From Owenia fusiformis (taxonomy: Eukaryota; Annelida; Polychaeta; Sabellida; Oweniidae), in NCBI GenBank assembly GCA_903813345.2, contig CAIIXF020000007.1, positions 19,331,564 to 19,395,563 of the forward strand: 64,000 nt of DNA, written 5' to 3'. This document shows, one piece after another, positions 10,377 to 49,079 of this stretch (its first letter is position 1; the number at the start of each line of letters is the position of its first letter). A model generated the notes under the pieces. That model saw only the letters and a list, made by a program, of their open reading frames with translations, was not told the origin of the DNA and did no database searches. The position numbers and the translations under genes were made by a program.

Positions 10377-10958
10377 CACAATGCATCATTACTATGACGA
10401 AATGTATCCGCATCGGATCTCAGATCGTATGAATTCACCGCCCCTGGGGTTTTCCCTTCTCTTACTAACCCCCTCTAACTTTACTAGACTTTACTTATTC
10501 AAAAGAGATTGAAGATTCACTGGCAGTTTTGAGTTAATCTCAGAAAAATAAGTGAAATCACATAGAAAAAGAACAGATTCAAACGATAACAGCTGTGTAC
10601 AATAGGCCCAATGTCCGTATTACAATGAAACAAATGACTAAGCGAATGTACTCACAACAACACTGCAAATCAGTAAAGTTGTCCAGAAATATTTTCTCTG
10701 AAACGAACAGGAAGCAGGAATTTAAACATGCGCATTGATCAGCCTAATTTCGTTTCTGTGCGCACCTCAGGCATTTAGCATTTTCGCGATAGAATAACAT
10801 CAATATTATACCTTAACACAGAAAAACAAAAGGAATTATCTCTATGAATCGTTCCAGGAGAGCATGTTCTTTGTAGATTGTGCAGCCATAAAGAAAATAC
10901 TCTTTTAATGTTGACCTTGGAGTAGCTTCCGTTATAAGACTTGTGGGTAAAAACAAAG

Positions 10959-13900
10959 ATGGCGGCCCTCATGAAAAGTAATTTTTGTTTTTATTTTTGC
11001 TGATTATTGCACAGGGGCTTGTCTCGAGGCGACGGGCAAGCCCTCCGATGAGTGTACTGCTTATTAAGAGTAAAAAGGGAGCTCGATTTTGATGCTACCT
11101 GAAATTTGTAGAAAATGATTGTAAGATATATCCAGTAAAATGGAATCCTTTCAATAATCGACATGCTGATTCAAACAACACTACAGAGTAAACTTACCTA
11201 AAATGGTAGAATTCCATCTACTAGTTTCTGAGAAATCTGAAGAATATGTAAAGAAGTGATTACACTGCAAGTACCGAAAATTTTTGAAGCCAAATTATTA
11301 CCTCCAGAGTCGATTTCTTCCCCAAGACACGTCCACTGTTAAAAATTGGTAGTTCCTAGAGTTCTTTGTTTCCTAAGGTTCATTCAATTTGCGTATTTGT
11401 CACGCATTTTCTGGAAAATTTGAAGTCACGCCAGTTTTTTGCGTGACAGAAAATGTCACGCAAATACGCATTTTACCTGATAATTGTCAAGCAAAAATAT
11501 TCCTCTAGAAATTTTTTTAAAAAATGATCGCCGATACAGCACAAAACCGAACGTCGCAGACTTTTCACGCTGATACTGTATATGTCACGCTTTTTTGTTG
11601 AAATATTCCATACTATTCGTGATTGTCACCCATCTGCTGGAAAAAATGAAATCACGCCTCAATTTTGCATGTATGATAAAATGTCATGCAAATCACCCAT
11701 TATTATCTTTATATTTAAAAAATTTTCTTATTATAAAATGCGGAAATAGTAAAAAACGAGCGTTGAAAAAAAGTGAACAGATTCCGTTCAGACTTTTCAC
11801 ATGAATTCCGTATGTCACACATTTGCTTTGAAATATGTGTATATGTCACGCATTTACTTCGAAATAATTTGTACCTACCTAATAATTTATACATTTATTT
11901 ACATTTTATACTTTCTTTTTTTTCTTTTTTTGGTCATGGGTGTTAGAGTTAGCAGTTGTTTCTATTATCCAATAATTATCAATGACTATGTAAATACTCT
12001 TATTGAATGAGTTTTCTTGGAAATGTTAAGGTCGGGGTGCATGTTCAGAATTTTGCTGCAATTCTGAATAGCGTAGCATATTATTTTTCAAATTTGAATC
12101 ACTCCTTCCCCAAAATGTCTACATCTCTCACTTTTGCACAATGAGTGCACTAATGTACCTAGAAAAGAATGTAGAGAAGAATGTTTTGATAAAATGTATA
12201 AAAAACAAGAAATTTCAAATCTTTTCACTGAATTTTTTCGTTTTTTATACATTTTACAAAACAAATCTCACCAGTCTTTTCTAGGCACATTAGTGCACTC
12301 TTTGTGCAAAACTGGAAGATGTAGACAATGTGGGGAAGGAGTGATTCCTGTTTGAAAAAATAACATGGCACTCAATTGAGGAATGCAGCAAAATTCCGAA
12401 CATGCACCATGGCCTTTAAAGCACAGCATTATGCAATTCAATAAGAGTATCTACATATAGTCAAAATGAACCTCTTATCAACCTGGCTTCAGGTGCAGAG
12501 TGCAGTGCAGTGCAGTACAGTGCAGATCCACAAAAATCAATAGCCACAGAATATCAATAAGCAGAAATTAATGAAAATTAATACAGTGCTGATACAAATT
12601 AATTGATATGTATAGTTGGCATATTTTCTTGAATTTTAATATTTAATGTCATAAACTCCCACAATCTGATAAGCACACAAAGTAGCGTCAAATATTAGTT
12701 GGAGTACAATATTCCAAAAGGAATTGTTAAAAAGTCAAAATTTAATTTGTGTACTGTAATTCTAATTTTAGGAAACCTGTATGTCACACCATGGGCAATT
12801 GTGCGTCACAAAGTGAATCTGAAGGGAAAGCCCAGGCCAACTTGGTATGAAAGATCAATTGTTGAAAAGATAAGTGTGCCATTGATGCCTCGGGCTCCAG
12901 TTGATTATGCCAACAGATGTGGGAAGCTGAATAATCAGAGGCAACAGTTGATACAAGTATGTACTTTGTATTCTTGACTAATAAAATTATAATTTTATTA
13001 TATTATTCATTGTTTTACTCTTATTGTTTTTTAAATTGTAAGTCTCATTCTGCTGTTTGAATTTTGTAAACAATAATGGCTTACGATTACCTAGTGAGAG
13101 CACTGTATGTTGTTTTTGAAGGGCAAAACAGATCTGTGAATTTTAAGTATTGTATATCAATATAAGATAAGAAAATCTGTCAGTTCAAGTTGTGGAATAG
13201 TCATGATCATATTTCAACTGTATATTGGTTAATGAAATCACAGAATGAAATTTTGTGCTTGAGCTGATGTGAAAAAGTCACAGGCCTGTCAACTGTCCCG
13301 CAATTTGCGTATTTGTCACGCATTTGCTGAAGAATTTGAAGTCACGCCAGTTTTTTTTGCGTGACAGATAATGTCACGCAAAATACGCATTTTACCTGGC
13401 AATTGTCACGCAAAAATATTTCTGTAGAAATTTTTTCGAAATATGTTTACGATACGGTAAAAATACGAACGTCGGAAAAAACCGAACGCAATTTGTTCGG
13501 ATTTGTCACGCGAATCCCGTATGTGTCACGCATGTTCATTGAAAATTTTTCGTACCAAGTTGACAGCCCTGAAGTCAGTAGTATAGAACCTACCACAACC
13601 CATTTTTGCACGCTCGGTCTTCACCGACTGGAGTTGAGTGAACGAAGATGACCACAACCCCTCGATTCAAATTTTAAAGATGATATGATTTCAGGATCTC
13701 TTTGAAAATGCTCCCATTTTGCATTTTGGTTGAACATCTTGGACAGGTTTCATGATAACAAGTTAGGCCATAGTGATACAATACTAATTAAAAAATCATT
13801 TCTAACACTGCTGCATTATTACTTATTTTTATAATTTACAGGATCATCCATATCAAGATTTCCTTATCCGTAGATGTAAAGAAATGTTTGAGAAGAACAG

Positions 13901-15755
13901 TATGGTAGCTGTCTTCCAACAGCTTAGTGCAAGTCGCAATGAGCAGAACAAAAATTTGAACAAGTTCAGGAAAAAAGGATTTACTTGCCACCATTTTAAC
14001 AACCTAGTTGTGAAGTGAGTATTGTGTGCCCAGTGAATGAAATTCTTGTAGAATTTTGGTGTGTCTAGTATCGAATTTTCACGACACAACTTTCTAAAAA
14101 GAGCATCTTGTTTTTCTCAATTTAAACATGTCAAACGTTTCTTCTACACTATATTAACACTTTCTGAAAAGGGGATAGGTATTGTAATGCATTAAAGTTA
14201 GAAACCGTATTTCCCATGTTATTTTCCCATAGGGAAAACTTGTGCTATCCATTGTTTTCACCATAATTTTGGTCATCGAAAATTGATATCTTCAAAACTA
14301 GACTTTCAATACCATTCTACTTTTGAAGAAATTTTAGACACCTTGTTGAATAATCTTTTCTTGCAATAAAAATCAGAAAAAGAAGATCCTCTTTTGAGTA
14401 AATAGGTTCAACATTTTGAAAAAAATTTTGACATGGGGTCCCTATTCATGATTTTTTGGATTGTTCGATTGATATTTTTATCATCATTGGTACTTCACTT
14501 GAAAGAAAACATATTATTGTTTTCATAAAAACCACTGTATTTATGCCCAGAAAGTACTCATGGTGAAAGATATGACTGTCTAAAATCACTTGCCTTACTG
14601 CACATGGATCTTTGCAAAGGTACCCAGCTGCTTGAATGCTAGAGAAGATGATTGCTACATGTCATGACTTCATGAAAGATGATACGCCTTTCTTTGTATA
14701 TTCAATTTGTTTTCATCGACACATGCTATTTTGATTCTAAGCATGACTTCTTATTTGATTGTATTCATTTGATTATTCCAGGAGATCTATAGCTGACACT
14801 AAGTGGGCAAACATGGCACCTTTGTTTGTCTCATCAACATTTTTTATCGCAAGTGAGGAGGCAAAAGTGAAAGATCTTGTACAAGCCAGTAAGAAGGTGA
14901 CAGACTTTGTACTATTAGGTAAGTATTCATGCTGAAGCCTCCTCCCATCCTCCTAAGCAGGTATCCAGAATCCGTACCTCCTTCTTCCCCCCTGCTATAA
15001 CCAACTTGGAAGCGCCCGATTAAACTGAATCACGTGATCTTATTATGCACAATGACTTATACATGATTTCTGTCGCAACCAATCAGATTGCGAGTTCTTA
15101 ATCGGGGAAAGGCTAACTGCTTATCGCAGGGGGTAAAAGAAAGAATATATTCTGGATTTTGAAGCCATGTGATCGGAGGATGCCTCCTCCCTGCTTTACT
15201 AGTTCTCTTATCTCTTGAGTTTAACAAAGTAAACTGCATTATTTTTACGACATCATCAAGAATTGGTGGCATATTTTTGTATCCACTATTTTTTAAGAAC
15301 TAGCATTGCCAATTGTAACAGATTGTTTCACTGTTGATATTACAACAACCAAGTGATCACTTAATATTGTTTCAATTCATGTAAAACTACAAATACAACC
15401 AAGTGATCACTTAATAATGTTTTAATTCATGTAAAACTACAAATAGACTAAAAGTTGAAATAAACTTACAAATAATCATTTCTTGATATTTCTGATTTCA
15501 GGTGCAGTAGCAGACGATAGGTTATTTTCCAAGCAGGGTCTGATGGACTATGCAGCATTACCAGACATAGAGACAAAACGTGCTGAATTAGTTGGCATAC
15601 TCAATCATGCAGCATCAAATACAAAATCTCTGTTAGAGAGACACCAACAGACTCTGAGTACAAGTTTAGGACAGTTCATTAAACAAAATACACAATCAGA
15701 AACATTAAATGAATCTAATCAGACTGAAACTAAAGATGGTGGTAATTCTTCTTGA
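10959..15755 (+). CDS. MRPL10: Mitochondrial large-subunit ribosomal protein L10 (bL10m), 5 exons
   Basis: Exons: 10959-10977, 12772-12956, 13842-14014, 14782-14918, 15502-15755. Phases join exactly (1,0,2,1) to give 255 aa, close to the 261 aa I recall for human MRPL10. bL10m binds 23S-like rRNA at the stalk base and anchors L7/L12 dimers in the mitoribosome. Recognisable family stretches include RHKVNLKGKP after the leader, the L10 core around MVAVFQQLSASRNEQ, the segment APLFVSSTFFIASEE, and SKQGLMDYAALP followed by the alpha-helical tail. The very short first exon (MAALMK) starts a basic leader consistent with a matrix-targeting signal. The start is the only ATG giving the needed phase just before a GT donor. 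Introns 1 and 2 are packed with foldbacks and TGTCACGC repeats. Exon 1 is the least certain part. Confidence 0.9.
11376..11600. repeat. TGTCACGC repeat, copy 1 (MRPL10 intron 1)
   Basis: Begins near TTTGCGTATTTGTCACGC and contains GTGACAGAAAATGTCACGC. It is clearly homologous to 13302-13560. A more decayed relative follows directly at about 11605-11860. No coding capacity was seen. Confidence 0.7.
11983..12461. repeat. Foldback element with ~200-bp arms (MRPL10 intron 1)
   Basis: The two halves are imperfect inverted copies. The outermost match pairs 11983-12008 with about 12435-12461 (AATAAGAGTAT core); inner matches include GCACTAATGT / ACATTAGTGC and a central pairing around TTTTATACATTTTA. 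The 73-codon frame at 12134-12355 spans the hairpin and is not a gene. Confidence 0.75.
12496..12528. repeat. GTGCA/GCAGT microsatellite
   Basis: Short run of GCAGT repeats in MRPL10 intron 1. Confidence 0.6.
13302..13560. repeat. TGTCACGC repeat, copy 2 (MRPL10 intron 2)
   Basis: Homologous to 11376-11600: both contain GCGTATTTGTCACGCATTT, a central GCGTGACAG segment and a downstream ACGAACGTCG-like segment. The 96-codon frame at 13361-13651 lies within it and is repeat-derived. Confidence 0.75.
14946..15182. mobile_element. 237-bp MITE with 8-bp target duplication CCTCCTCC (MRPL10 intron 4)
   Basis: Ends are CATCCTCC and GGAGGATG, and the flanks at 14938-14945 and 15183-15190 are identical (CCTCCTCC). 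A second copy in opposite orientation lies at 42081-42327 with its own, different target duplication. An 8-9 bp duplication fits hAT- or MULE-like transposition. Confidence 0.75.
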
Positions 15756-15786
15756 TAGATTATACTGGATCTTTTCATATTTATAG

Positions 15787-15792
15787 AATAAA
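15787..15792 (+). terminator. Poly(A) signal AATAAA for MRPL10
   Basis: AATAAA lies 32 bp after the MRPL10 stop codon, a plausible distance for a short 3' UTR. Confidence 0.6.
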
Positions 15793-15863
15793 TTGATACA
15801 TATTGGAGATTATTTCATTTATGAATCATTTAATCAACTCTCATTTAAAATTTTTCATTTTCT

Positions 15864-15990
15864 TATGTCACCACCAAAAGTGGTGACATTGTTTTGGTCT
15901 CCAACTTTTTTTGTGGACAGGGTACAGCAGTTGGCATCTGTTACAAATGGTAGGTGATGAGATTTTGCATCTTAATGCCTTGTTTCTGTT
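15864..15990. repeat. Short (array-less) copy of the GTCACCACC repeat family
   Basis: Begins TATGTCACCACC and ends near CTTAATGCCTTG, as the long copies do, but the AGGTCA-rich centre is absent. Confidence 0.6.
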
Positions 15991-16054
15991 AGAGATATAA
16001 TCAGTAAATGTTTTTACCAATCAGCGATGATGACATGATCTCAGTGAAGACTAT

Positions 16055-17874
16055 ATTCACCTTTCCACAAAGTAAAGAAAATTGATAATTTCCGGCACGC
16101 TGATTGGTTGTATGCAAATGAGTCAAATCAATGACGTCAATGATGGAAAGTTTTGAAGAATTAGTACAGCCAGCATAGGAATATTTTGAATTAACTGCTA
16201 TAAAAAGGATTCTATTTGCCCAACGCACTAATTATTTTTAAGCAAATATGAAATCTGGACGGGGCACTTTCTTTCTGAATCTTATGTAATTTAATTTAAG
16301 CATTTTTTTGACAGAACTACTGTTTATTAAGACTTCTCAGATCAGCCTCACATACCAGGGCTCACGTGTCTCGTGTGATTGTAAATAAAAAATGTAAATT
16401 GTGAAGTTACAAACATCGGCTAAATTATCTGATAGTGGTCATACACTATCCTGTTAAATGGTTATTATGTCGTAGTAAGAAGTTCCATCAGAAATTCACA
16501 ATGAGTGACATTCGCACAAAGCGTTACCTTTTGGTATTTATTCACCAACAGCGATGTCAATAATGATCAGCAATGTCAACATATCATCAATAAACATTAT
16601 ATGATATACGCTCTTTCTCTGAAATCTTCCCAGTGACCATTATTCAAAACCGATCATCACATAACTAATTTATCCAATGACAAGTGAGGTTTCACAAGTG
16701 AAATCAGGACACCCATATCCATGTTTGATTTCTATTAAGCTTTCTCATTCTCATTATTTTCGAGAAATCCATCATCATTTTGGTTAAGATAAATTCTACT
16801 GTCTGCTGGATCTATTTTGACAGTTTTGTTTTAGCAAGATATTTTAACCAATTGACTGTTTCTACACTGAATAAAAAACATTTCCCCGGGGATATTTGGA
16901 TCGGGAGATACGCAGCGGGAAATATACATTGGACTATATACACGTTTATCCCATACTTGGATGTAAATTGGGAATATTTGAGAGAACAGGAAAATCCGCC
17001 CACGGCCAAGAAAACAAAACTGGACATGAATATTCTAAAGTATTTCCACGATTGAACAATGTGAAGCGGATGACCAAGATTGGTATGAGATAAACATATT
17101 ATCCTATAGTCGGTTCAGGATATTGGGATTATCCCTTGGCATGGCCAATATAATATATTTTCCCTCTGGACCTTCGGCCCTCGGGCAGATATATTATAAT
17201 TGCCTCGGGATAATCCCAATATCCTGAACCTCATGTAGGATAATCTCTATATATGTCACGCTCCTCTAAGATATCAATTCTATATTCCAATGTTTTCAAG
17301 TATAATATTTTCAAGATACGATCTGATATGACTTGCAGAAATAAATAGGAAGTAATCGTTTAGTTGATTGAATTATGGAAGTAGTGAAGACAATGATTTA
17401 ATGAATAAGAGCAAATGTTTTTAATTTGAACAGGTCATTCATCAAATGACACTGAAGATTATCTTAAAATAGATTGTCTATCTATATATTTTTTATGCAT
17501 GAGAGACATGTTATAATGTTGGTGAACTAATGATTGTGATAATTTCACCTGTTCACATCCAGTTCCTATCATGATTGAAAACTGACCGGGAGTAATTTTC
17601 TTCAAATTATTTACTCATTATGAACAGAAATTTAATATTTAAATCACTTAGAAGGCGTAAATAAATGTCAATTTGACGTTCAATAAGAATCTGTCAATAA
17701 TTTACTGATTACTTGCACATTTGAAGAGGTAAAACTTACCGCAATCAACCGAGGATTTACATGTTAACTCAATTGCATTTGTTTTTCGCGGGAAAAAGTT
17801 TCAGTCATTGACGTCACCGATTTTTAAGCAGCTCATTATAATATTCATAAGCTGACTTTGTGGAAAGGTGAATA
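16055..17874. mobile_element. ~1.8-kb element with ~20-bp terminal inverted repeats, no recognised transposase
   Basis: TATTCACCTTTCCACAAAGT at the left end is matched in reverse complement at about 17854-17874. CRE-like TGACGTCA motifs lie inside each end (near 16133 and 17809). Open frames inside reach 91 codons (16780-17055) with no domain I recognise; a low-complexity tail with ENPPTAKKTKLD is the only feature. It could be a non-autonomous DNA transposon. Confidence 0.45.
17110..17232. repeat. Short palindromic element
   Basis: TTCAGGATATTGGGATTATC near 17116 is followed after about 75 bp by its reverse complement near 17209-17229. The centre (GACCTTCGGCCCTCGGGC) is itself GC-rich. It is a small foldback inside the 16055-17874 element. 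Confidence 0.65.
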
Positions 17875-18035
17875 GATAGAATTTCATCTTAAGATCCATT
17901 CACATTGAGAGGTTATTAAATCCCCTTGGTACATGTGGTACAGGGTCATCAACAAAGGAAGAGGTAAACAAAATATGTTTTCTATTGGTAATGCATAAAC
18001 CCAATGGACTTCTGATGTCACTTATTGTCACACCT

Positions 18036-18543
18036 TTTTATGTCACCACCAAAAAAAGTGGTGACATTTTGTTATGGTCTCGGATATTTTTTGACGGCGG
18101 TTGGCGATCAGCATCTGAAACAAATTCTTACAACTTCCAATAATTTAACAAATGCTGTATAGACTGACTTCAATAACTAATACTGTATAGACTGACTTCA
18201 AATGTTTTCAAAATCATTTACATGTTTTTAGATGTTCAAATCTGACTTTAAATTTAAGATTTGACCTTCAATGACCTTTTCAAGGTCAAAAAAGGTCTTT
18301 TTCAACTTGCTTCAAATTGACCAATTTCTTTCAAAATCATCTATAAGTTATCAGAAGTTCAAACCTGACTAAGATTTGACCTTCAATGACCTTCTTAAGG
18401 TCAAAAAGGTCTTCTTTAACTCTTTTTTCAACAGTTCAAATCTGACTAAAGATTTCACCTTCAATGACCTCCTCAAGGTCAAAAAGTCATTTTTTATCTT
18501 GCTTCAACTAGGTGGTGACATTTTGTCATGTTAATGCCTTGTC
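18036..18543. repeat. GTCACCACC / AGGTCA repeat element, ~0.5-kb copy
   Basis: Starts TATGTCACCACC, contains about three AGGTCA-type units (TGACCTTCAATGACCT forms) and ends GGTGGTGACATTTTGTCATG followed by TTAATGCCTTG. It lies downstream of the PITRM1 stop codon. Confidence 0.75.
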
Positions 18544-18738
18544 TGTAATTACTACTATAAATAGGTTTCTTGTAGTTTATTTCATTGATGTAAATTAATT
18601 GTAAAATGTATTATTTTATAGCCTGGTAATATAAGTTTTTTGACTTCAATTTACTACATGTACATGTGCATGTACATGTATGTTTGAGTCAATACTGTAA
18701 AATCATCTTGAGCCATTCCAGTCAAAGAACAGTTTCAA

Positions 18739-18744
18739 TTTATT
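18739..18744 (-). terminator. Candidate poly(A) signal for PITRM1 (minus strand)
   Basis: TTTATT on the plus strand reads AATAAA on the PITRM1 strand, about 280 bp past its stop codon. No closer match was noticed; the assignment is tentative. Confidence 0.35.
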
Positions 18745-19020
18745 CATAACGGACATAATGTTGTTATTCTTCAAGCTTGCGCTGTGCATTCATCACCTTA
18801 TCTCTCTCTGTTGCTTCTTGTTAATTAAAAAGACCCTTCTGAGCTTTTGGCCTTTTACTGTCCTGGCCTTTGTCACTGGGACATTTTGAATAAAGACCTA
18901 TCTGATTGGTCATGAGTCTGAGATGGAAAAATATCCTTTGGGTGAATGAACGACCATGTGACTGAATTGTTCGTGCAGCTGATGTTTGATTCTGCCATCA
19001 TAAAATTATAATATTAGGCA

Positions 19021-22000
19021 TCAGTGATCTTTCTTTATAGTCCATGTACTACTTGCAGCAGTTGTTTCATTAGCAGGGCCCAGAAATGCTGTAGCACTCT
19101 CTGCTCCATTTGAAAGATACCTAGAAGAAAATATTTAACATGTATGATCAAAAGGACTTATTTATTAAAGTCATCATGAAGAATGAATACATAGAATAGC
19201 AAAAAATACAATATGTCTCAAAATTGAAAAAAGTGAAATATAAGTTGTCCTAGCAGTTTACAATGAGGTAAGAACAAAGAGAACCTTGACAATGTTCTCT
19301 TGATTCAAGGCTTTACATACTCTGGTCAAAGTAGAACAGATATTACATCTACATTCAATGATAATGGCATGATATTTTCATATTTTCAAAAATGTGTAGA
19401 TCAACTAGGGCTGAAAGGAATAGTAAATTCTCATACCGTTTAATATTAGAATACCACAAAATGCCATTCGAATATCACCTCAGACCTATTTGCAACCGAA
19501 TACTTGAGTATTCGTTTCACCCCTAAGATCAACATTTGAAAAATTTGTGTTGACAAAATGTGATGAACATGAATGAAACATAAATACCCTCCCTCCCTCC
19601 CTTCAATATTATATCCATCTGAACTGAAAGAACTCACTTCTCTGCCACAAATTGTATTTGCTGTTTGTCCGTAGAAAATAACTGGTCTCTGTGAGTCTGT
19701 CTCATGTCATCATCAATGCCTGATAGAAATGGTGTCATTCCCTGATCTCCTGGTGACACTGGCTTGTCAAGCTAAGAGAAAAGGGTGAAAGTGAAAACCA
19801 TACTCACTTAAAAAATAATGTGAATCAATACTATGGGGTAGATACTGAACACCTGGAGTGAATTATCAGATACCAAAATTGAATATCTTATCATTTTGAG
19901 TGATACAAGATATAGAATACTTACTACTTGGATCTATTTTCTTTTTAATTTAGAGGCTTTAATAGATATTTATATTATTAAACTGGCATAGATGCTCATA
20001 CTCTATCATTAAACTATAATAAGTGCTAAATATAGAGAAGTCACCAAGTTCAATTTGAAAATATGTATTGTTATGTTTTACATATATTTGAAGGTTACCT
20101 GTTGAAAAACTGACAGTTTAGCCTCTTCTATATCCTGTTCTTTGTAGCCTCCTTCTTTAGCCCATTGCACAGACTTATCAAATCTCTCTAATGTAAGCAT
20201 TGAATTAGGGTCCCTGGAGAAGACAATATCATTCTATACTACTCTACAAAACAACTCTTCAGTTTTTTTCACTAAGTAAAGTTTGGGTTAGGGTTCCTAC
20301 AACTTTTACATGATTGAATTCTCTAACATTTCCAGGCCAAAAATATATATCTTGGGGTATTATTATTCAGAAAAAGTATTATGCATTTGTTCACATATGA
20401 TTCCCACATTTTAACTTGTCCTTACTCCTTAGGCCTTTAAATGTTCATTCATGATCAATTTTTATGTCACCACCAAAAGTGGTGACATATTGTTATGGTC
20501 TCCGTTTTTTTGCGATGGCGGTTGGCGTCCGGCGTCTGTAACAATTTCTTACAACTTCCTATAACTTAACAAATACTGTTTAGACTGACTTTAATTTTTT
20601 TCTAAATCATCTACATGTTCTCAGAAGTTCAAATCTGACTTTAGATTTGACATTTGACCTTCAATGACCTTCTCAAGGTCAAAATGGTCTTTTTTCAACT
20701 TGCTTCACATTGACTAAATTTTTTTTCAAAATCATCTACATGTTCTCAGAAATTCAAATCTGACTTTAGATTTGACATTTGACCTTCAAATCTGACTTTA
20801 GATTTGACATTTGACCTTCAATGACCTTCTCAAGGTCAAAAAAGGTCAAAAAGGTCTGTTTTCAACTTGCTTCAAATTGACTAAAAAAAATTTTCAAAAT
20901 CATCTATGTGTTCTCAGAAATTAAAATCTGACTTTAGATTTGACTTAAGATTTGACATTTGACCTTCAATGACCTTCTCAAAGTCAAAAAAGGTCAAAAA
21001 GGTCTTTTTTCAACTTGCTTCAAATTGACTAAATCTTTTTTTCAAAATCATCTACATGTTCTCAGAAATTCAAATCTGACTTTAGATTTGACATTTGACC
21101 TTCAATGACCTTCTCAATGTCAAAAAAGGTCAAAAAGGTATTTTTTCATCTTGCTTCAAATTGACTAATTTTTTTTCAAAATCATCTACATGTTCTCAGA
21201 AATTCAAATATGACTTTAGATTTGACTTCAGATTTGACATTTGACCTTCAATGACCTTCTCAAGGTCAAAAAAGGTCAAAAAGGTCTTTTTTCAACTTGC
21301 TTCAAATTGACTAATGTTTTTTTTCAAAATCATCTACATGTTCTAAGAAATTCAAATCTGACTTTAGATTTGATTTGACCTTTAATGACCTTCTCAAGGT
21401 CAAAAAAGGTCAAAAAGGTCTGTTTTCAACTTGTTTCAAATTGACCACATTTTTTTTTCAAAATCATCTACATCTTTTCAGAAGTTCAAATTTGACTTTA
21501 CAAGTTCTCAGAAGTTCAAATCTGACTTTAGATTTAACCTTTGACCTTCAATGACCTTCTCAAGGTCAAAAAGGTCTTTTTTCAACTTGCTTCAAATTGA
21601 CTAATTTTTTTTTCAAAATCATCTACATGTTCTCAGAAGTTCAAATCTGACTTTAGATTTGACATTTGACCTTCAATGACCTTTTCAAGGTCAAAAAGGT
21701 CTTTTTTCAACTTGCTTCAAATTGACTAAATCTTTTTTTCAAAATCATCTACATGTTCTCAGAAATTCAAATCTGACTTTAGATTTGACATTTGACCTTC
21801 AATGACCTTCTCAATGTCAAAAAAGGTCAAAAAGGTTTCATCTTGCTTCAAATTGACTAATTTTTTTTTTCAAAATCATCTACATGTTCTCAGAAATTCA
21901 AATATGACTTTAGATTTGACTTCAGATTTGACATTTGACCTTCAATGACCTTCTCAAGGTCAAAAAAGGTCAAAAAGGTCTTTTTTCAACTTGCTTCAAA

Positions 22001-25000
22001 TTGACTAATGTTTTTTTTCAAAATCATCTACATGTTTTAAGAAATTCAAATCTGACTTTAGATTTGATTTGACCTTTAATGACCTTCTCAAGGTCAAAAA
22101 AGGTCAAAAAGGTCTGTTTTCAACTTGTTTCAAATTGACCAAATTTTTTTTTCAAAATCATCTACATCTTTTCAGAAGTTCAAATTTGACTTTACAAGTT
22201 CTCAGAAGTTCAAATCTGACTTTAGATTTAACCTTTGACCTTCAATGACCTTCGTCCTTCAATGACCTTCTCAAGGTCAAAAAGGTCTTTTTTCAACTTG
22301 CTTCAAATTGACTAATTTTTTTTTTCAAAATCATCTACATGTTCTCAGAAGTTCAAATCTGACTTTAGATTTGACATTTGACCTTCAATGACCTTTTCAA
22401 GGTCAAAAAGGTCTTTTTTCAACTTGCTTCAAATTTACTTAATTTTTTTTTCAAAATCATCTACGTGTTCTCAGAAGTTCAAATCTGACTTTACATTTGA
22501 CATTTGACCTTCAATGACCGTCTCAATGTCAAAAAAGGTCAAAGAGGTATTTTTTCAACTTGCTTTAAATTGACGAATTTTTTTTTCAAAATCATCTACA
22601 TGTTCTAAGAAGTTCAAATCAAACCTTCTTAAGGTCAAAAGGTATTTTCCAACTTGCTTTAAATTGACCAAATTGTTTTAGGTGGTGACATTTTGTCATG
22701 TTAATGCCTTGTTCACTTTGAATTGCTTTAAACATAGAAACATTATTTTTCAATGGTTCAATATGAGAATACAGTGTTTAATGTTTACAGATAGTGCAAT
22801 TCTACATCATCATGCAATAAAAAATATAAAATAAAAAAAGTTTCACCTTTACACTTACATTTCAATTGGCTTACCTGTATGAGTAAAATGAGAATGAGCC
22901 TGGAGAACCCCCTCCTGCTCCACCACCATATGCTCCTCCCTTCTCTCTGAAATCAGTCAAAGAAATAGCAAATAAGCTAATTTTTAAAATGAGGAGAACC
23001 CCCTCCTGCTCCACCACCATATGCTCCTCCCTTCTCTCTGAAAATCAGTCAAAACGAATTACAAATAAACTAATTTCTAACATGAGGAGAACCCCCTCCT
23101 GCTCCACCACCATATGCTCCTCCCTTCTCTCTGAAAATCAGCCAAAGAAATAGCAAATAAACTAATTTCTAAAATGAGGAGAACTTCCTCCTGCTCCAAC
23201 ACCATATGCTCCTCCCTTCTCTCTGAAAATCAGTCAAACAAATAACAAATAAACTAATTTCTAAAATGCAATGCACTTTACAAAATATGATGTTAACATG
23301 TTGACTTCCATGAAAGACCTGCTTCTCACCCGTCCTTCCTAAATATTATTTTTCACATGAAGATTATCCTTAACTTAAGTGATCCATTCTGTTTTAAGCT
23401 ACTAATACACAAGAAACTGTTTGAAGCAACTTATAACACTTCCATAATATGGAATGAATCAGTAGTTTAGTACAGTAAAACCTGTAACACTATTTTGGGG
23501 TACTGAAGGTTCCGCTATCACAAGTTTTACTTTTTAATGGATGAATTTAGATATACAGCTCAGCTTTTGAATATTATTCTTAAAATATTTCATTCTATTG
23601 AGATGACAACATATTTTCACTCAGAATAATCTTATATCAAAACTTTACCTTGCACTGCTACAAATGAAATATAGAGAAGATTCTTATTGCTAATATACCT
23701 GATTTCCCTGTGTAGATATTTAGCTGACATGAGCCTAGATAAGATCCTAAGAGGAGCAAAGTGCTCATGTGTGTAAGGTACAGTTCGCACCACCCGTGCC
23801 ATGTAGTTCACAGAGAATGGAAGCTCATACTGTACACTGCAGGGAGAAGGGCTGAATGGTTCCAATATGGGTGGAGCACTTCTTGCACAATCTCCAGGCA
23901 GAGTTTGAAGAAAACTGTTGGATTCTTTCAATGCATTGTCAATAGTTGAAGCACCAGCATTCAAGGCACACCTGAAAAGTATGGGACATATTAGACATTG
24001 GATATACTGGAAGGTTGTTCCATTACTTTCATGTATATTTTCTAAATGAGAGGCCATGTTCAAAATAATAGAATGTGCAAAATCAGGACTATTTGGTCAA
24101 TGTGACTGGAGATGATTGGATATGAAATTATCTGTATTATGATATACATTTCTCGATTAATTGATCGTTCTGTTTAACAGTTCTTTACTGTGTGTAAAAC
24201 AGTGACACAAACAGAAGTTGGATTTGCTTCCATTTTTATAGATTATGTTAATTTTGTTAATACTAAAACTAACTGGAAATTTTAAATTAAACTGCATTTC
24301 TAGCACCTTAAAAGTTGCTCAAGCTTAAAAAATATTTCAAATATTGATTCCTCTTTTCAGACACCATACCTTATGTTATTTTTATTGAGAACATGTTGTG
24401 CTATAAGTTTAAGTTTTCCAACAATGGGAGTGAGATCTTCCATCTCTGCTATTGTCTTCATAAACATCACCTGAATGTAGATAAATATAATACAAATGTC
24501 AGCCAATCAGAGATACTGTTATGTTGTCATAACAATGAAACCTAATAATCAAACACAAGTTATTAAATTGTTACATAATTATACCAAAGTGTTTTTCTCA
24601 TAGCTGAATTTTAGACTACAAATCATTTGTTGACGAGGCAATTTGTTGCAAACCTTAATGTAACAATAGAGGTATTAGAATTTTTTCCAGTCAACCTCTA
24701 AATCATGCAATCATTTTATATTACCAGCTTATACATTATGAAATTAAAAATGGCAGTTCAATTAAATAGCAACATTCTTTATTCCCCATCTATCCCCCAT
24801 CAAAACTATCAGTCATACTGCACATACAGTATATCAATGCAATACCTGAGTCATGCCACTAAGTTGTTCCTTGAGTTGTCCACTGGGACTTAGATAGCTT
24901 GCTGCATGTGTCATAGCTAGAGCGTGACCCTGGTCAGCTATACTACCAGCCATATCTGCAGAACACATTCTCACCAGGGTTGTCAACCGATTCATGTCTG

Positions 25001-28000
25001 ATAAATCTAAACTGAAAGAAAATATCAACTTATTAATTAAAGGGGTATAAAAACAGGGTGTTTCAAATATATCTTCAGAATGCAGATGTCTCAGGCAAAC
25101 GTATTATACATCATTTTAAAGATACTACACTGAAAGAGGTGTCAATGATTTAGCTGATCTTTCATCTGATAAAACAATATAAAAATAGTCCCTTCCAATG
25201 ATAAAATTGTAAACTTCCACTGTGAACACTTTCTGTGAGCAAATACTTTACAATGTACAATAGTCTTTGGTTATTTCCCCATTAAATGCATATTGTATAC
25301 ACACTGTCAATCCTCCAAGTTTTCTGAAAAGCTGTCAATTCTTTGGTAGTTAATTAATTACCTGTTAAATATTTGTCCCCAGAGGTTGAACATGGCTTCA
25401 ATATTCTGATCCAGACAATGAGATGAAAACAAGATTCCCTGAAATTATAAGAATCTCAAGGTTTAAAACATCACATCAGTAAAAACATGGGATGTGGGTA
25501 TTAAAATGCGATTCTAATTTAAGCTTTAAGCTTTGCCATAGTTGAACTGGTATTTTCTAGTAAATGCACAAAATATAAAAAATGTATGCTCCCACAGGTT
25601 TTTATGGCTTATTGTGGCTCATTGTACATATATTTCTAGTAGTTCTGTAAAAGAGTTACAGCAAATGTGTTTACATTACAAGTACCTGAGATTGCCATCA
25701 CTTACCTGTTCATATATGTCAAGGTTAGAGTGATTGTCTGAGATAATGTTAGATGCTGACATGCCTCCAGTCTTCAACTCAATCTCTTGTGCCAAATCCT
25801 TGAAGTTTAGACCTCCAGCACCCATGCTGTAATGATATACAGAGAAGGGTCACTCAATGACAATGAAGATGACACCAATACTGCTTCAATCTTGTATGGG
25901 GAATTAAGTAATTTGAAAGCATAGACATACAACGCATTAACATGCAAAATGTCACCACCTGCCATTTGTCAAAGATGCCAACCGCCGAATTTCACAGTCA
26001 GAGATTCAGAGATGGAAAATTGTAAATTTCAGATGAGTCAAACGGTAACAAGTCAGTTGAACACTGGCATACTTGATTTAAACTAGTTTTAAATAGAGTC
26101 TCACATACATACCTAGTCACAACATTAGTAAACAGTTTCAAGAAGGGCCTCAGGTCTGCAGGTATAGACTGTGTGTCAACAACAGCTCTAAAGTATGTCA
26201 CCCCATTGGTAGGTTGCTCACAAAGCTGCACAGGGACGCCATCTTTAAATAAAACATATACACTATACAGAGATTTGAAAAAGAACATGTCTTTTTGCTC
26301 TTTTTTCTAACAAATATATGTCTTGGTTACTTCATTCATTTATATCAGATGTCCTGAATACTGCATGTTTATTATATTCTTGTTTTCTTAGCCTTCTATT
26401 TAATTAAATTCTAAAACCAGTAAATCTAAATCAAACATCAAACTTTGTTGAACATCGTACCTGCACTTTCAATGTCAGTATGTACTCTTATAACATCTTT
26501 GTCTATGTCTGCCACCCTAAGAGTAGGAAGACAGGAGAGGTCTTCTTCAGCCATCTGAACCTTGGCTAACTCTAAACCTAATGATATAAATGAAATGATT
26601 TGTTATTTTATTAATATGTCAAAAAAGAAGTTCTACTCAGTTCAAATGATTTCATAATTGTGTTTTTCTATATATGCTGAACAAATCACCAAGCAACTGG
26701 CTCTAGGCCTAGCACTTCTGAGCTGGTGCTCATGTGGCACCCTGCTTAATACTAGTATAGTAAAGTACCTTTCTTATATATCTCTTCCTTGTCAGACTCA
26801 GATAGCTGACTGACAAGATAACTGAGTTTATTTTGTTCCTCTTCCTGACTCTTAGCCTCAAACTGCTCATCAGGGGTCATGGTCACAGTCAGAGTGTGCT
26901 TGTTGGACTACAATTGGAAATATAAAAGGTTGTAATGAAGGGGTCATGGTCACATTCAGAGTGTGCTTGTTGGACTACAATTAGAAATATGAAAAGTTAT
27001 TATGAAGGGGTCATGGTCACAGTCAGAGTGTGCTTGTTGGACTACAATTGGAAATATGAAAAGTTATTATGAAGGGGTCATGGTCACAGTCAGAGTGTGC
27101 TTGTTGGACTACAATTGGAAATATGAAAAGTTACAATGAAGGGGTCATGGTCACAGTCAGAGTGTGCTTATTGGACTACAATTAGAAATATAAAAGGTTG
27201 CAATGAATCAAAATGTTAAAAAAGATTTGTTGTTAGGTGTTTTTCAAATGATTTATAAGTTCAATCGGGCATTTTGTGCTTTTTCACTAAATATACTTGT
27301 AGATCACTCCCTGACAATGCAACTCTAGGCTCTAGATTCTGAAGTGCCTATTAGCTTCAAAATTACAAATGTAGAATATGTAAATAAAAGAAATATTGTA
27401 GCCACAAACCTTATAGTAATAACTAAGCTACAAATACATTATGACTGAGACAGTTATACAAGGTATTATCAGTTCAATCTTAAGTCAGATATTAATTTCT
27501 GAGAACTCTGCACTCTGAGAACTTTTGAGAACTTGTAAATGATTTTGAAAAAGAAATTGGTTGCTTTGAAGCAAGTTGAAAAAAATACATTTTTGACCTT
27601 GAGAAGGTCATTGAAGGTCAAATCTTAAATCTAAAGTCAGATTTGTACTTGTAGATGATTTTGAAATATAACTGATCAATTTGAAGCAAGTTGAAAAATA
27701 CCTTTTTGACCTTTTTTTACCTTTAGAAGGTCATTGAAGGTCAAATCTTAAACCTAGTCAGATTTGAACTTTTGATAACTTGTAGATGATTTTGAAAAAA
27801 ATTGGTAAATTTGAAGCAAGTTCAAAAATGACCTCTTTGACCTTTTTAAACCTTTTTCATCTTGAAAAGGTCACTGAAGGCTAATTTTTAAAGCTAAAGT
27901 CAGATTTGAATTTCTGAAAACTTGTAGATGATTTTGAAAAACTGAAGTCAGTCATAAACAGTCTTTGTTAAGTTATTGGAAATTTTAAGAATCTGTTACA

Positions 28001-31000: not shown

Positions 31001-34000
31001 GGTATGATGCAACAATCTTCCACCATTTTTATCTGCCATTTGTTACAGACACTGAATGCCAAACACCAACTGCCGAATACCAGACACCAAAAACACTCCA
31101 CAAAAAGGTTGGAGACTTCAACAATATGTCATCATTTCTGATGGTTACATAAAAACCTTCTGTGTTTTTCACCTTACTCATTCAAAACTGATTACATGAT
31201 TACACTGATATGTTTGAATTAAATAACCAGAGGAATTTAGCATAAAGTCCCTTATCATATATTAAATCAATCTCTCTTTTACAGATATTTCTGACTTATG
31301 CTTGAAATCAAAATTAAAAAAGATCTTAAAATCTTCAATCAATTTTTATTTTTGTAGATAGCGTTAGATGTGAAAAATAATAATCCAAAGTCATATCTAA
31401 ATCTCTTTTTAAGAATTAACAATTATATACCAATGTAAACAGATAAAATGTTATCAATAAATTAAGGATAATTGTTGACAAACATATGATGATCAATTGA
31501 GATCACTTTGAACGACGATTTTCACTGGTATACATGTATACTGAATTTTCAACATTATTAACCTCTTGACTACACAGTGTGACAATTTCTCGTCACCTAA
31601 GAAATGGCCTTAAAACCTAGAGTGACAAGATAATCTGTCACAAAATTCTTTTACTAAAATTGCTCTAATTTGAACAATTTTCATGCAATTTATACCAAAA
31701 TGTCTTAATATGTGTAGAAATGATCTTTGTATCATATCAATTTGAATGATTCTTTCATACCATTGCTTTAACTGTAAACCTGAGTTTAGTTTATTGACTC
31801 AAGTCATTTTTGATAAGGACTGAAAACATTGAGAAAACACTGAATTCAATGTTTTACATTGTAAATACCAAGGACTGCATATTAATATAAATTAATAATT
31901 GATAAATTAAAAAAAGTTACCCTTACAGAAAAAATGAGCAATAATATTGCTGAAATGATGTAAGAAAGCATTCATGGATTAAAAATAGAGTGTGTAGAAA
32001 TTTAAAAAAAACAATGTTTAATCAAATAACATCATGACTGCTATGTATTCAGTCAGTGCCTAGAACATCTTGGTAATCTAATTATAAGATAAGAATCAGT
32101 TACTAAAGGTAAGGCTAAAAACTACTTCACTTATCAAGTTGACATTACAGGGTTAGATATGTACTAGTAACTTGCTTTTATTTATCAATTAAATTTCTAA
32201 GCAGGGGTGGCACCACATCCAGAGCCTTAATGGGTAATTAAATGATCATCAAAAGATAATCATCACTAAGAAGATAGATATAAATATGGCCTTCACAAGG
32301 TAAGTATCTCATTCAATATCAAAAACAAACAAAACTTTAAATTAAAATAACAATCACAGAAAAACTTTTATCGCTGAACAATCTAGGAAAATATCTTAAA
32401 TTAGGATTGCAGTCTTGATCTATCAGCTGAACACCAAACATTCTTTACATGGAATTAAAGACAATTTAATTCGATGCAAATAGAGGCATGTACTCTCTTT
32501 CTATAATGGGAGAATAATTCAATTCTTTTACAATCTATCACAATCAATGTCAACCAAAAAACTTGCTGAAAGATAAAGATAAGCCAAGATAAACATGTTT
32601 TACTGCACATCTGCTTCAGTCGAAGACATCTTTACAAGGTGAGCACTTATATATTCTGATTTCTTGCAATTCACTATCAACAAGATTAAGATTTTTTCTA
32701 AATGAGCACTTTTGGCAAAATTGTACAGTTCCACAAAATTGTCAAAGTATTGTAAATAAATAAGAATATGCTTTAAAACTTTTTAATGAAAAGATGTTGA
32801 TTATGCAAAGTGCATGTTCAACTGTTGTTATACAGTGGAGCTAATTCTGTGGTTTTAGTAATTTATGTAATTTCTATATCATGATTTGATTTATTCATAG
32901 ACCTATTAAATTTACTTTGTTTCAGTGGTTTCATTGAGATGTTTCCAGTGATGGATCGGGAAGCAGAGTTGATAGCACATCGTTACAGAACACTGTACAA
33001 TGAGGAAAAAATGTCAGACATAAAGTAAGGACTTTATTCATCCATTTCCTTATTAGGGCATTTTTCATTTCTATTTTTTAATGAATCAACTTTAATATCT
33101 CCCCCTGAAATATGCTCATGAATTGGTATGAGATTGTAAATATGTATAAATGTTATAAAAACTGTCATTACAAAATATTGTTCATGCGCATGCAGAACAT
33201 TTAATAATTTGGGGTTCTGTGCCTAGAACCAGAATCAAATGTAGGATACGATGCAAAATATAATATGGGAAATCAAAATGCAAAAGAACATATACAGTAA
33301 TTGCCTCAAAGTGATGATAAAATTGGATAACACATAAATTAATTACATTTGGATTTTATTCTTCACTTCAGGTTTACTTGTGGTGAAGACCCCTTGAAGC
33401 AAGTGATATATGGCCACAAGTTAATATTGGGAGCAGCCAGCGATGTATTTGAAAGGATGTTTTATGGTGGTTTGAAGGAGTCTCAGGGTATCATCCACAT
33501 TCCAGATATAAGCAGAGATGACTTCCTAGAGATTCTCAGGTAGCCCTTTAAATTTCAATAAAACAATGTGTCTAATGCTACTTTAAACAAGTCTAGAATC
33601 AGAAGAAATATTGCATTTCTATTCTCTTAGTAGTTGGCGGTGACACCTATACTTTTTCACAATAAAAACTATAAACAAATCACAGCCAAACTTTAGAAAT
33701 GTAGCGCCCACATTTCACTGATCATTCTTGCAGATATATCTACTGTGGGGAAGTCCAACTTACAGCTGAGAATGTTCTAGAGATATTACATGGAGCAAGG
33801 AAATACCTTGTGGCCAACCTTGAGAAGCAGTGCTGGAGATACCTCAACGACAACCTGTGTGTTGAGAATGCATGCATGCTCCTAGAAGTTGCCATTAAAT
33901 TTGATGAGGACAAACTCAAGTCAAAATGCTTGAGAGTGATACGCCAGAAAACAGATGAAATTATCAAAACTGAGAGCTTTTTCAGGATTTCCCAAAATGC

Positions 34001-37000
34001 GTTGAATATGATTTTACAGCTTAATGTACTCAATATGGCATCAGAAATTGATGTATTTCGGTTTGTTGTCAGATGGGCAGAAGATCGATGCGAAGAGTTA
34101 AACTCTTCAAAAGATGGCGCCACAATGAGAGAAACAATAGGGGATGCATTATATAATCTGAGACTTTTAGAAATTTCTACCTCTGACTTAGGATGTATAG
34201 TTGCTCCAACAGGAATACTGCAGCCCCAGGAAGTTGTAGATCTTCTGATATACATAACTGCTGGGAGCAAAAACCATGATAAGCTGACCAAGTTCTCGAA
34301 AGAAAAGCGGAAATATACCATTGAGATTGAACAGACTCATAATAACTTAAAAATTGAAGACTCTAAATCTACTATGAAAAGTCGAAGAATATTTGGACGT
34401 CGCAAGAGTTCAAGTTCCAATATGAAAGCAGAACATTGGTAGATTCAAATACAAGATAGACAGCACTTAGCAGTAATATGTTCATCAATGGCTAATTCTT
34501 TGTAAAATATGACAGAAATATGAAATGTTTTTGCTACCCTGTTAACTTTCTCTATTAATTGAATGAACTGTAAGTGTGTTTTGTAAGATAGCTAAACACT
34601 TTTTATGTACATATACATTACACAAGTCTTTTAAAACAACTTGAAACAGCAACTCCCAGGAGAAGCAAATAACAAAACACATTATATCAAAGCAATCATT
34701 GTTTTACAATATAGTACTATGATACAAAAAAACAAGTAGCAGTTTTGTCCCATTTTTGGATCTACATCCATGGACATGATGCCATATTAAAAATTCTTAG
34801 TAGATGTCCGATGACCATAAGGCATTAGCCTATCAGGTCCAAAGTTAATAACTGGTATTTGCGTTATAGGAAAAATTTCTTCTGAAAAATGGTGCTCATT
34901 TTGAATTTAGCAGCCATCTTTAAAATTTCTTCTAAAGCAGAGTCCTAAACCCATAAGGCATAAGCAAATCAAAATCTGAACCAAATCTGACGACTTGCAT
35001 TTGAGTAATCAAAAAAAACATTTATTTACGAAAAACTGCCAATCATTTTGAACTGAGCAGCCATATTGAATTTCCTTTTGGAACAGAGGTCCTTTTCCCA
35101 TAAAACTTGAATTAGCTTATTAAATTTGAACCAAATCAATATATCTAAATTATCATGAAAAATGGTGGCCTTTTTGAATTAAGAGACCATTTTGAAAATT
35201 TCCTCTTTAACAGAGGTATAAACTAGTATTCAGCAATGATTATACCATTAAACAAGACAAGAACAGGACAAAATGTCACAACCTGGTTGAAAATTACACA
35301 AGTGTACCAAATTCAGATGCTGAAAACGAATGCCAAATGTTGGTCACAAAAAATGTCACTGTAACAATATGTCATGACTTTTTGGTGAGGTGAGAGAAAA
35401 TGATTTAAACTTACTCTCCTAGCAGATAGTTCACAGCAACAGTTGTCTGTTTTTCTGGATCTGGTGCCATTGGGTCAGGACGACATGTTATCCTAGCCTC
35501 TCTCTGAAGTAAAACAGAAGATCACATTTGATATAATATACTCTTTGCATTCTGTGGAACTAAAATAATCTAGCTTAACACAGAGTCTAGTGACAAAGTA
35601 ATGTAGACGAAGTCTAACTAATGCAAAGGCTAGAAAGAGCATTGATAGATGAGTATAAAAGTGGGACGGAGGATGAGTCAATTTGCGAAACAGCCAAGAA
35701 AAGGTGCTTATCTTTGGCCGATTCGTCTATTCATTTACATAACCCAAATAACAAATTGCTATAAATATGAATAAAGGTTTACCATTTCTGACCATCTTGG
35801 CTCAGATGGAACTTCAGTCTTTGGGTCAATCTTGTTAAAATGTTGTAAATATCCCTCATTTATGGCCTTTAGATGGTGCTCAAGAGACATATCTCCATAT
35901 GTGTAAAACCTGTAACATTTATGACAAAGAATGAAATTAGTGAACAACAAAAGATATCTGCTTATCAGTTTCTGAATGTACAATAATTCAAAGTTTTCGA
36001 ACCAAACTGACATATAGATGGAAGTACAAGTGTTAGGTGAGCATATTATATTCGTTCATGTACATGTATTCATATAAAATATGATAAATATTCTGTGAGT
36101 TCAGTATTAGCTTATTCAGTTTATGGTTCATTGGATGTTCTGGTTCATAATGTGGAACTCATTTGATCAAAGAGATGCAATCTAAAAAAATTAAATAAAC
36201 CCAAAAAATAATGATAAATGCCCTGATTGTTCAATTAAAATCTCAAATAGAGGAAGGTGTGTTTACCTGGAGTTACTAGGGTGATAATGTGAGGCATGGA
36301 AGTCTTTCAGGTGTGACCAGGTAAGATCAGGTATATGTATTGGATCCCCTCCACTAACTACGCTGTATGTATGGCTTGGCATCAAGTGATTCTGCACTGC
36401 TTCACAGAATAAATGTTGTGGATTAGACTGGAAATATATGTACGATATGGTAAGTAGATTTAAGACACTTTTCACTTTTATTAAGTTCATCTCCTGGGAA
36501 GGGACTGTCCGGTTGTGTATGAATGCAGTTGATTTTGTTAGGGGAGGGGTAAATGATATTTCATTAATGAAGAAAGTTGATTTTTTTTAAAACTTCCTTT
36601 GAAAGACATAATAATACTCAACAATTTCAAGTTTTGTTAAATGGGGGTTGGAATCATTCAATAATGAAATTAACTTAATATTTTAACAAGTTTGGACAAC
36701 TGAACACCCAATCTCAATGTTGTACTTAAAATGTATTATAAATCAAATAAATTGATTAATGCCTTGTAAATATGTTGATTTTCTAAAATATGCTGGGAAA
36801 GATGAAAATCATTTGACAAGGGGGGTTCACTTTACAGAAAATTCAAGAGGGTTCACGACAAAGGACAGGTGGCGGTAAACCCTTCTTTTAGCCCCCCTAC
36901 AAAACAAGTATATATTGACATGGAATTGAAGAGGAAGTATGACTTATTACTTAAAATGTGATTTCTGAGAATTTTGACATTTGACCTTGACATTAGGGTG

Positions 37001-40000
37001 GTTTGAAGGTTAACTTTGAGAGATGCTATTTTTGTCAAAATTTTGCCATTTTCTAATACAAGAAATGAAAGCAATTGGCTTTATTTTGATTGTGACTGAT
37101 AATAAGACATGTGAATGGAAATAAAAATGTTCTTCATAAATTCTCACGGGCAATTACAAGAAAATCTTGAGAATAAATCCCCATATGGGCATTTTTAGGG
37201 GGACTAAATGTTCCTGTTTCAAAAATGAATGTTCTTGTTGCCTTTTGAGACTCCAACAGTATCCTAAGCATGTTTTAAGAGTTGGGATGTGATTATTGTT
37301 TTAATGCCCATGGGCAATAAGGATAAAATGACTGCAATTAAATGCACACAAGGACACTTCCATGAGAATGGATTTTCTTATTTCAGTTGCTTCTCACCAG
37401 TTTTCTAAACATGTTTGCCATATTTTAAGTAGTTATAGGGTCACTTTTAATAAATGCCCATTGGCATTTGCTTTGGAATCTGAAATTAAATGTCTGTATG
37501 GACACTTAATTTTAAAGTTACTTGCCAATTTGCAGTTCCCATATTTGAAACACAAATAATTCAGAGAAATCCTCTTTCAATATATATCATAAAATATAAG
37601 GCAGCATCATGTATAAATGGCATGACACTCAAAGGATTGCTTAAAATTCTCTACTTATACACTATTTAGAAAAACTCTTAGGCCATTCAAAGATGTTTTT
37701 ATAATTAATGTCACTAAATTCTATGTTTTCAGAAAAAACAAAATGTTCCCATGTACTCTGTACTTGTAATGCATATAAATGACAAAGGGGATTGTGATCT
37801 TGGATTATATTGTAGTGAAATGAGTTCCAGATTGATTAAAAACTATGTGTATATAGGCTTCAGTATTGTCTTCATTAACAAGGTCATCTGAATCAAGAGG
37901 TATGTTACTTGCCTTCCCACAGTGTGTTATTGCATTTTCGCTATTAAAAAATATATAAAACCCTTTAAATAAATAAAGGTTTTGTAGTTTTTAATATAAG
38001 GCCATTCATCAGAATGCCAACATATAATTAATTTTGAATGGCCTTATCTGTACATGCAATTATGTAGTGTACATGTATGCCCAGGTTAGCAGCCATATTG
38101 AAAACATAAACCAGTCAGCCTTATTTTCATCACAAAATTTAAGTTTTAGTGGTGAGCCCACACTCCCACAAGAATGATATTTGCAGGGAAGCTACTTCAC
38201 AGTCTACGCATTATACACTTTTCAATATCTTTTTTGTGGGAGTTTGGGCTGATGGTTAAATTTTCAATGAAAGGGAATGAGCAAGATGCTTAAACTTGAT
38301 GACAAAGTGAACAAAAATGACAATGTTTTCCAGATTTGCAGTAGTAAACTTCATATATAGCTGGATTTTGTTAATGTTCTACTCCGAATGCTTGTATGGT
38401 ATATGTTCCATATAATAAATTCTATATAATGATAAGTTTTGATATTATTTTGATGGTAAACATAGTGTGTACCCATATTCAGACAGTCTTGTGATAGGGG
38501 TTCTTACTGCCAATTTTTCAAAGAATCTGAAAACTAATGCCACTTTTTGAAATTGCACATTTCAAGAAAAAGGGTTTATCTACAACTTGCAATTGGTTTT
38601 AAAAGTAAATGGAAGAATGAGTTTTTTGGAAAAAATCTTAGTGGACCAATAGTCTGTTAAATGGACCTGTTCTTTGGCCCAAAATCACATGAAAAATGCT
38701 CAAAATTTTGGCTGGCACTCCAGTTACACCCTGATGGAAATGCCAAGTCGCAACATAGTGATCCATGTACATATAATGTACTTACAAATACTCCTTTCAT
38801 TTCATTGAAGACAACACCTTTGAAGACAATGGGAGAACTTGGATCATCTGTAATCTCATGTTCTAATCTCCATCCTTCCTGGCTGAAATAATGTAATACA
38901 ATAGAGTACAATACAATACAATATATTACAATGCAATACAACAATACAATACAACAGAGTACAATACAATACAATGTAATACAATGAAAGGATGATCTGA
39001 GACTTGAACAGAGAGGTATTTGTAATAAAGGAATGGATTACAATGTCAAAATGTTGAACAACAAAAAGGTGCATATCTGAGTACATTTTACTGCAAACTG
39101 TCCTTGTGTATGTTTACAATCTTTTTCTATCTCTATTCATAGGTGATAATTCAATTCATTAGACAAATGAAAGGAAAGTGTTTATACGTCAAGTAACCCT
39201 GTACATACACATGGTAATTGTACCTACCAGAAATCAAGTTCTCGTAGTCTAGGCTTGAAGACAGCATCAAGGTATATAGATAGAAGGTTCTGGAAATCCT
39301 GTTCATTTTGAGTGGAGAAAGGATACATCGTCCAATCTGATGCTGAAAGTTGAAATGAACATTCATCTTCAAAAACTGTATCATGTATTACTTTTGCTCA
39401 ACTAATAGGTTGGTGCAAACTCTAATCACTCCAAAAAAGATTTTACTTCTGAACTCAGAATTCCAGAGATGAGAGTGAAATTATAGACTCAACATGTTAG
39501 TCAAATTAATGATAATCACAATTAGTTAACATACATACTAAACATACCTGTGAATGCATTCATGAATGTTGACATAGACCTGTTTAGCATTTTGAAAAAT
39601 GGGTCCCTGACAGGGAACTTTTCTGAGCCACACAGTGTCGTATGCTCCAATATATGAGGCACTCCTGTGCTATCCATGGGGGTTGTGCGGAATGCCACGC
39701 TGAAAATGCAAGATTCAGATATATGTAAAATGGTAGATCACATTGGAGGTACATGTAAGGTTGTATGATCTAACTGAAATTTATGAAAATATCTGACAAT
39801 AATTGATCAAGAAAGATGTGAAACATTGCACAGAAATATGTGTTATCTCTGAAATCATCATGAAAGATTCCCAGCTAGTTACAACATAGCTTTGGTTACA
39901 GCCATAATCTTACAAGTGTAATCGAGCAACCATAGCCTAACAACCATCTGACAACCATAATCAAGCAAGAATAAATCTGAAAATCATAGTCCCACAACCA

Positions 40001-43646: not shown

Positions 43647-44130
43647 CACGTCCTCTTGCCCATACAGACTAAATCCGAGTTATAAATAAAAAATTAAAAA
43701 GATAATTTTTTTGCATGAATTTTTCAAAAGTCAACTTGCACTTTGAGAAACGAAAATGAATAAATGAACTCTGCTATATCCGTATATTAAAGCCTGTTGA
43801 ACTTAAAAAAATACACAATATAAATTTATATTATATTTTATTCAATAATTACTGCTGCTTACATTTAATTTGTGATCAGTCTTTTGAATTTCATTTGAAA
43901 CTTTCCTGAACAAGTTTGACACACAACCGGAAGTGCTATGAGTATGGAATTTTAAAATTTAAAATTTTTATGAAATCTTGCGATATTGTCTAATATGTCG
44001 AATTAACCGAGAAAATACATTCAAAAATAGTTCTTCTACGTGTCATATTTAACATTAGACCGATTTTCTTGAATAGACAGAGTTATAGATCTCAGGCTGT
44101 CATGCATTATTCACGGGCTGTCATTCCAAC

Positions 44131-48530: not shown

Positions 48531-48536
48531 TATGTC

Positions 48537-49060: not shown

Positions 49061-49079
49061 TCCATATTGAGTGCAGTAT

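Follow-up and report, generated by a model that had tools for sequence, protein, structure and literature searches.

Tandem repeats whose unit spans an exon–intron boundary have been described in amphioxus, where they were named "mirages" and reportedly leave regular splicing undisturbed (PMC3087553). In the globin gene BflGb6 the repeated segment comprises the 3′ end of an intron and the 5′ part of the exon; it is present as six and three units in two haplotypes, and the boundaries of the cluster are described as exempt from homogenisation (PMC3087553). According to the same report, the 3′ boundary of exon 2 is duplicated in BflGb9, the units of Adh3 are 10–72 bp long and show both length and somatic instability, and mirages are put forward as a route to new introns (PMC3087553). 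A similar account has been given for the 60- and 108-bp repeats of lancelet PGBD5 and for troponin C (PMC3902484). In the potato RdRp gene, a boundary-spanning tandem duplication gave rise to a new, spliced intron, and this gain worked through a cryptic GTAAG donor (PMC4974935).

Two arrays of tandem copies of an intron–exon boundary, resembling the amphioxus mirages, are found in the gene PITRM1. The array at exon 14 is very probably a tolerated minisatellite of the mirage type, removed together with the intron during splicing. The mechanism is ordinary, and the array belongs to a kind already known from amphioxus. As in BflGb6, an acceptor and the start of an exon are repeated, and the end units are set apart from the inner ones. 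The differences from the amphioxus cases are that another gene is concerned, that two arrays lie in one gene and that both sit on acceptors. PITRM1 shares the type of duplicated segment with the potato gene, but carries four to five copies and no strong donor. The human IFI6 gene (6-16, G1P3) reportedly contains a minisatellite providing multiple splice donor sites (Turri and co-workers; NAR 1995, 23:1854). That minisatellite likewise repeats a splice site, but it is the donor, whereas the PITRM1 arrays repeat the acceptor.

The PITRM1 array may be a mirage outside cephalochordates. No mirage outside lancelets was seen among the literature matches listed, which leave many journals uncovered. 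The G+C content is 33.3%, below that of lancelets. Should the host lie outside the lancelets, the known range of this repeat type, put forward as a source of new introns, would be wider.

Host gene and anatomy of the exon 14 array

The minus strand of the window, i.e., the whole 64,000-nucleotide stretch of DNA analysed, carries PITRM1, a mitochondrial peptidase gene, three frames of which match human presequence protease (PDB 4l3t_A and 6xos_A; whole-sequence E-values of 6.1e-17, 4.4e-23 and 3e-35). A tblastn search with a human sequence located the exons between about 40.4 and 19.6 kb. The resulting gene model covers 22 exons; it does not extend to the segment that separates exons 5 and 7, to the final exons or to the reading phase at the exon 15/16 junction. 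Exon 14 aligns to residues 470–522 of 4l3t_A (17.5 bits and an i-Evalue of 0.0018 when this stretch is taken alone), and the intron that precedes it is in phase 0 and ends in TAG. The coordinates of all the features are given in Table 1.

Table 1. Features of PITRM1 and of its two boundary-spanning arrays (positions within the window; a slash marks the splice junction)
Feature	Position	Strand	Basis or remark
PITRM1, mapped part	19638–40210	−	22 exons with AG and GT sites assigned
Further PITRM1 match, beyond the mapped part	40419–40460	−	tblastn
PITRM1 exon 14 (number provisional)	26769–26907	−	139 nt; first base 26907, acceptor TTGTAG/TCC; donor AAG/GTACTT after 26769
67-bp × 5 tandem array straddling the exon 14 acceptor	26872–27207	−	TRF and direct reading
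Exon-joined (true) unit	26873–26939	−	intron half 26908–26939, exon half 26873–26907
Decoy unit 1	26940–27006	−	acceptor first base 26974
Decoy unit 2	27007–27073	−	acceptor first base 27041
Decoy unit 3	27074–27140	−	acceptor first base 27108; carries the highest-scoring GT of the array (27135), itself weak
Decoy unit 4, outermost	27141–27207	−	acceptor first base 27175
PITRM1 exon 22	22875–22946	−	72 nt; true acceptor first base 22946
Second boundary-spanning array, about 92 bp × 4	22902–23268	−	on the exon 22 acceptor

TRF reports the array with a period of 67, 5.0 copies, 94% matches and 0% indels. The mean identity at a lag of 67 is 0.944, against a best value of 0.372 among 2000 shuffles of the region at lags of 65–69. 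Read on the minus strand, the unit consists of the final 32 nt of the intron and the initial 35 nt of the exon, with one more T shared. Four decoy acceptors precede the true one at steps of exactly 67 nt. An earlier note on this DNA had named the gene, strand, acceptor, period, copy number and decoy acceptors, and all of these agree with the present analysis. Its location for the array (26871–27205) was right to within 1–2 bases, and the repeated exon start, with its acceptor, does recur but measures 35 nt, not about 33. The label "exon 14", also used in that note, is provisional: it holds only if the match near 40.4 kb counts as exon 1 and a single unlocated exon fills the gap between exons 5 and 7.

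The five units vary at 8 of 67 columns (6 of 32 in the intron half and 2 of 35 in the exon half), in seven distinct patterns. Over the intron columns, the two end units differ from each other at 2 of 32, the inner three differ mutually at 1–3, and inner and end units differ at 4–6. The pattern fits a minisatellite with turnover among its inner units and with ends that follow more slowly, and the suggestion in the earlier note of a recent or homogenised expansion is a reasonable one. The least likely of the explanations considered is that a single unit was wrongly expanded during assembly. There is a precedent, as the BflGb6 mirage appears, according to a supplement caption, to be aberrantly assembled in the amphioxus genome draft (PMC3087553). 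The seven patterns of unit variation argue against such an artefact here, as does the existence of the exon 22 array with unit variants of its own.

Under the mirage explanation, a 67-bp segment covering the 3′ end of the intron and the start of exon 14 would have been duplicated in tandem; unequal exchange or slippage then probably raised the number of units to five. The copy adjoining the exon retains an intact acceptor and the remainder of exon 14, so that the coding sequence is unchanged. The four upstream copies make the intron longer and in all likelihood leave with it during splicing, as none has a good donor and the true acceptor is the nearest to the donor of exon 14. Use of a decoy would yield a transcript with a premature stop, and selection presumably tolerates the array.

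Splice signals and predicted decoy transcripts

Splice sites were scored with matrices built on 21–22 sites of PITRM1 alone, which makes the scores rough; real donors were scored leave-one-out, and candidate donors with all 22 donors. The true acceptor of exon 14 scores 8.7 and the decoys score 9.3, 7.6, 7.6 and 10.4. The true copy is not singled out by the acceptor signal alone. Five similar acceptors at 67-nt steps amount to a natural counterpart of the classical experiments with competing splice sites.

No strong donor was found inside the exon 14 array; the best GT (ATT/GTAACT) scores 2.3. Among the assigned donors of PITRM1, 19 of 22 score 5.4–13.1, and the other three only 0.6–1.9. The description of the decoys as lacking donors is thus approximately right, but three real donors score lower still than the best GT of the array. 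These scores bear on the possibility that the birth of an intron or exon is under way, with one unit already spliced in as a small exon. In favour of such a process are the duplicated segment, of the same type as in potato RdRp (PMC4974935), the amphioxus model of this kind (PMC3087553) and the presence in both arrays of weak GTs that three real donors do not exceed. However, potato used a cryptic GTAAG donor, while the best GTs of the two PITRM1 arrays score only 2.3 and 2.6, and the segment 27175–27135 is 41 nt long, which is no multiple of three. Ongoing birth is considered highly improbable, more so than a useful role of the decoys (see below).

The isoforms that would result from use of the decoys were translated from exon 13 onward. 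One extra unit shifts the frame, and a TGA is reached in exon 14, as the earlier note had predicted. Two or three extra units lead to TAATAA directly past the exon half of the first decoy, and four extra units to a TAA at almost the same place. Three units (201 bp) preserve the frame by length, as had been proposed, but the frame is closed by the TAATAA and additionally by a TAG immediately 5′ of exon 14, since the intron is in phase 0 and ends in TAG. An in-frame stop thus follows from each of the four decoy acceptors.

In data on human alternative 3′ splice sites, the upstream site is on the whole preferred (PMC9225289). By analogy, this preference would favour the decoys and would count against the mirage explanation. 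The same study indicates that competing 3′ sites separated by 20 nt or more are as a rule defined at the step of initial recognition, that the upstream-site preference is significantly reduced if both flanking introns are longer than 250 nt, and that exons whose upstream intron is long and whose downstream intron is short act in the manner of exon definition (PMC9225289). Exon 14 is flanked by introns of 1196 nt upstream and 191 nt downstream, so that under the human rules the choice would be made across the exon and would favour the acceptor nearest to the donor, i.e., the true one.

The second array and variation within units

The acceptor of exon 22 bears a second array of the same design, which bears out the words "same architecture" in the earlier note. 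Its decoy acceptors have their first bases at 23037, 23130 and 23222, giving steps of 91, 93 and 92 from the true site onward, and stops follow from all three. Exon 22 is flanked by introns of 752 nt upstream and 2661 nt downstream. According to the rough PITRM1 matrix, the decoys score 1.8–3.9, versus 7.5 for the true acceptor; one difference of the decoys from the true site is an extra T. The best GT in this array is the one that scores 2.6. The second array constitutes a replicate of the natural competing-site experiment at exon 14.

Both PITRM1 arrays have a unit that spans the exon–intron boundary, which is a defining trait of mirages. The authentic boundary lies at one end of each array with an open reading frame, as both exon 14 and exon 22 stay open in frame when translated from their true acceptors. 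Homogenised inner units with exempt ends, the third trait, are seen in the exon 14 array only, where the numbers are small.

In the two arrays pooled, variation is seen in 5 of 80 columns of the exon halves and in 18 of 81 columns of the intron halves (Fisher p = 0.006), a statistic in which columns are linked and gap columns included and which draws on two arrays only. After removal of three edge columns of the exon 22 array, 16 of 78 intron-half columns are variable (p = 0.010). Taken separately, the exon 14 array gives p = 0.14 and the exon 22 array 0.02–0.07. The lower variation of the exon halves in both arrays weakly suggests, at the level of sequence, that the decoys are not decaying freely. 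Units may be regenerated from the exon-joined position, or may pass through it, and selection acting there would keep the exon half clean.

The low variation of the exon halves would also suit a regulated poison array, in which decoys are used to advantage, stop-containing transcripts tune PITRM1 output and copy number sets the dose. Such a role would agree with the stops that follow from all seven decoys of both arrays and with the resemblance of the exon 14 decoy acceptors to the true one. Nevertheless, an intron this rich in AT would be expected to contain stops by default, the exon 22 decoys score below their true acceptor, and published mirages are reported not to disturb regular splicing (PMC3087553). 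Regulation of this kind is regarded as very unlikely.

For mirages, the tolerated and spliced-out kind proposed here, a broader proposal can be offered only tentatively, being somewhat less probable than its opposite. Mirages might be a general by-product of tandem-repeat-rich animal genomes and not a peculiarity of lancelets, with exon halves kept clean since each unit can become exon-joined and be screened by selection. If this is true, new introns and exons could draw on such arrays as a standing stock of ready-made acceptors.

Other exon edges and the rest of the window

Forty-four edges of PITRM1 exons (50 bases on each side) were each matched against the neighbouring 800 bp on the intron side, with 100 shuffles each. 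Within these 800 bp, boundary-spanning copies were found at 2 of 22 acceptors and at 0 of 22 donors. The exon 22 acceptor scored 169 against a shuffle maximum of 31, and the exon 14 acceptor 147 against 30. The exon 5 acceptor also exceeded the shuffle maximum (62 versus 27), with a match confined to the intron side and formed by a pentanucleotide array. The exon 2 donor was barely above it (30 versus 29) due to a 20-base match inside the intron. The remaining 40 of the 44 edges yielded no score above the shuffle maximum with 800 bp and 100 shuffles. A comparison of 23 exons (46 edges, some without assigned splice sites) at an E-value of 0.01 also revealed short matches of 15–24 bases at four edges; the matches of the exon 22 donor in this comparison derive from the exon half of the exon 22 array.

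When arrays of equal length were placed at random in PITRM1, 44–45% of the trials touched an exon edge, and 9–10% touched an acceptor but no donor. PITRM1 is exon-dense and random arrays often touch its edges, so the position of the arrays alone needs no special cause. Two acceptor-side arrays, counted in PITRM1 only, represent no clear excess over random placement.

A search of viral_contigs for an exact 30-base stretch of the exon half returned 0 matches, which is what animal DNA should give. Translations of regions 4001–19000 and 44001–59000 in six frames each (12 of 12) had no Pfam match at E 0.001. Domain matches were obtained for 2 of ten open frames elsewhere in the window. An open frame on the opposite strand (33705–34442, plus strand), located in the intron that separates exons 9 and 10 of PITRM1, matches BTB and BACK domains, and a weak match to the DDE_3 transposase domain, under the Pfam cut-off, lies at 53489–53815 (minus strand). 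The introns contain two further large arrays (20785–22620 and 27590–27941) with units of about 125–134 bp and AAGGTCATTGAAGGTCAAAT-like motifs; judged by eye, they belong to one family and are in opposite orientations. The pentanucleotide array at exon 5 consists of AATAC repeats (38895–38985) and is located directly upstream of the acceptor, in the region of the branch point and pyrimidine tract.
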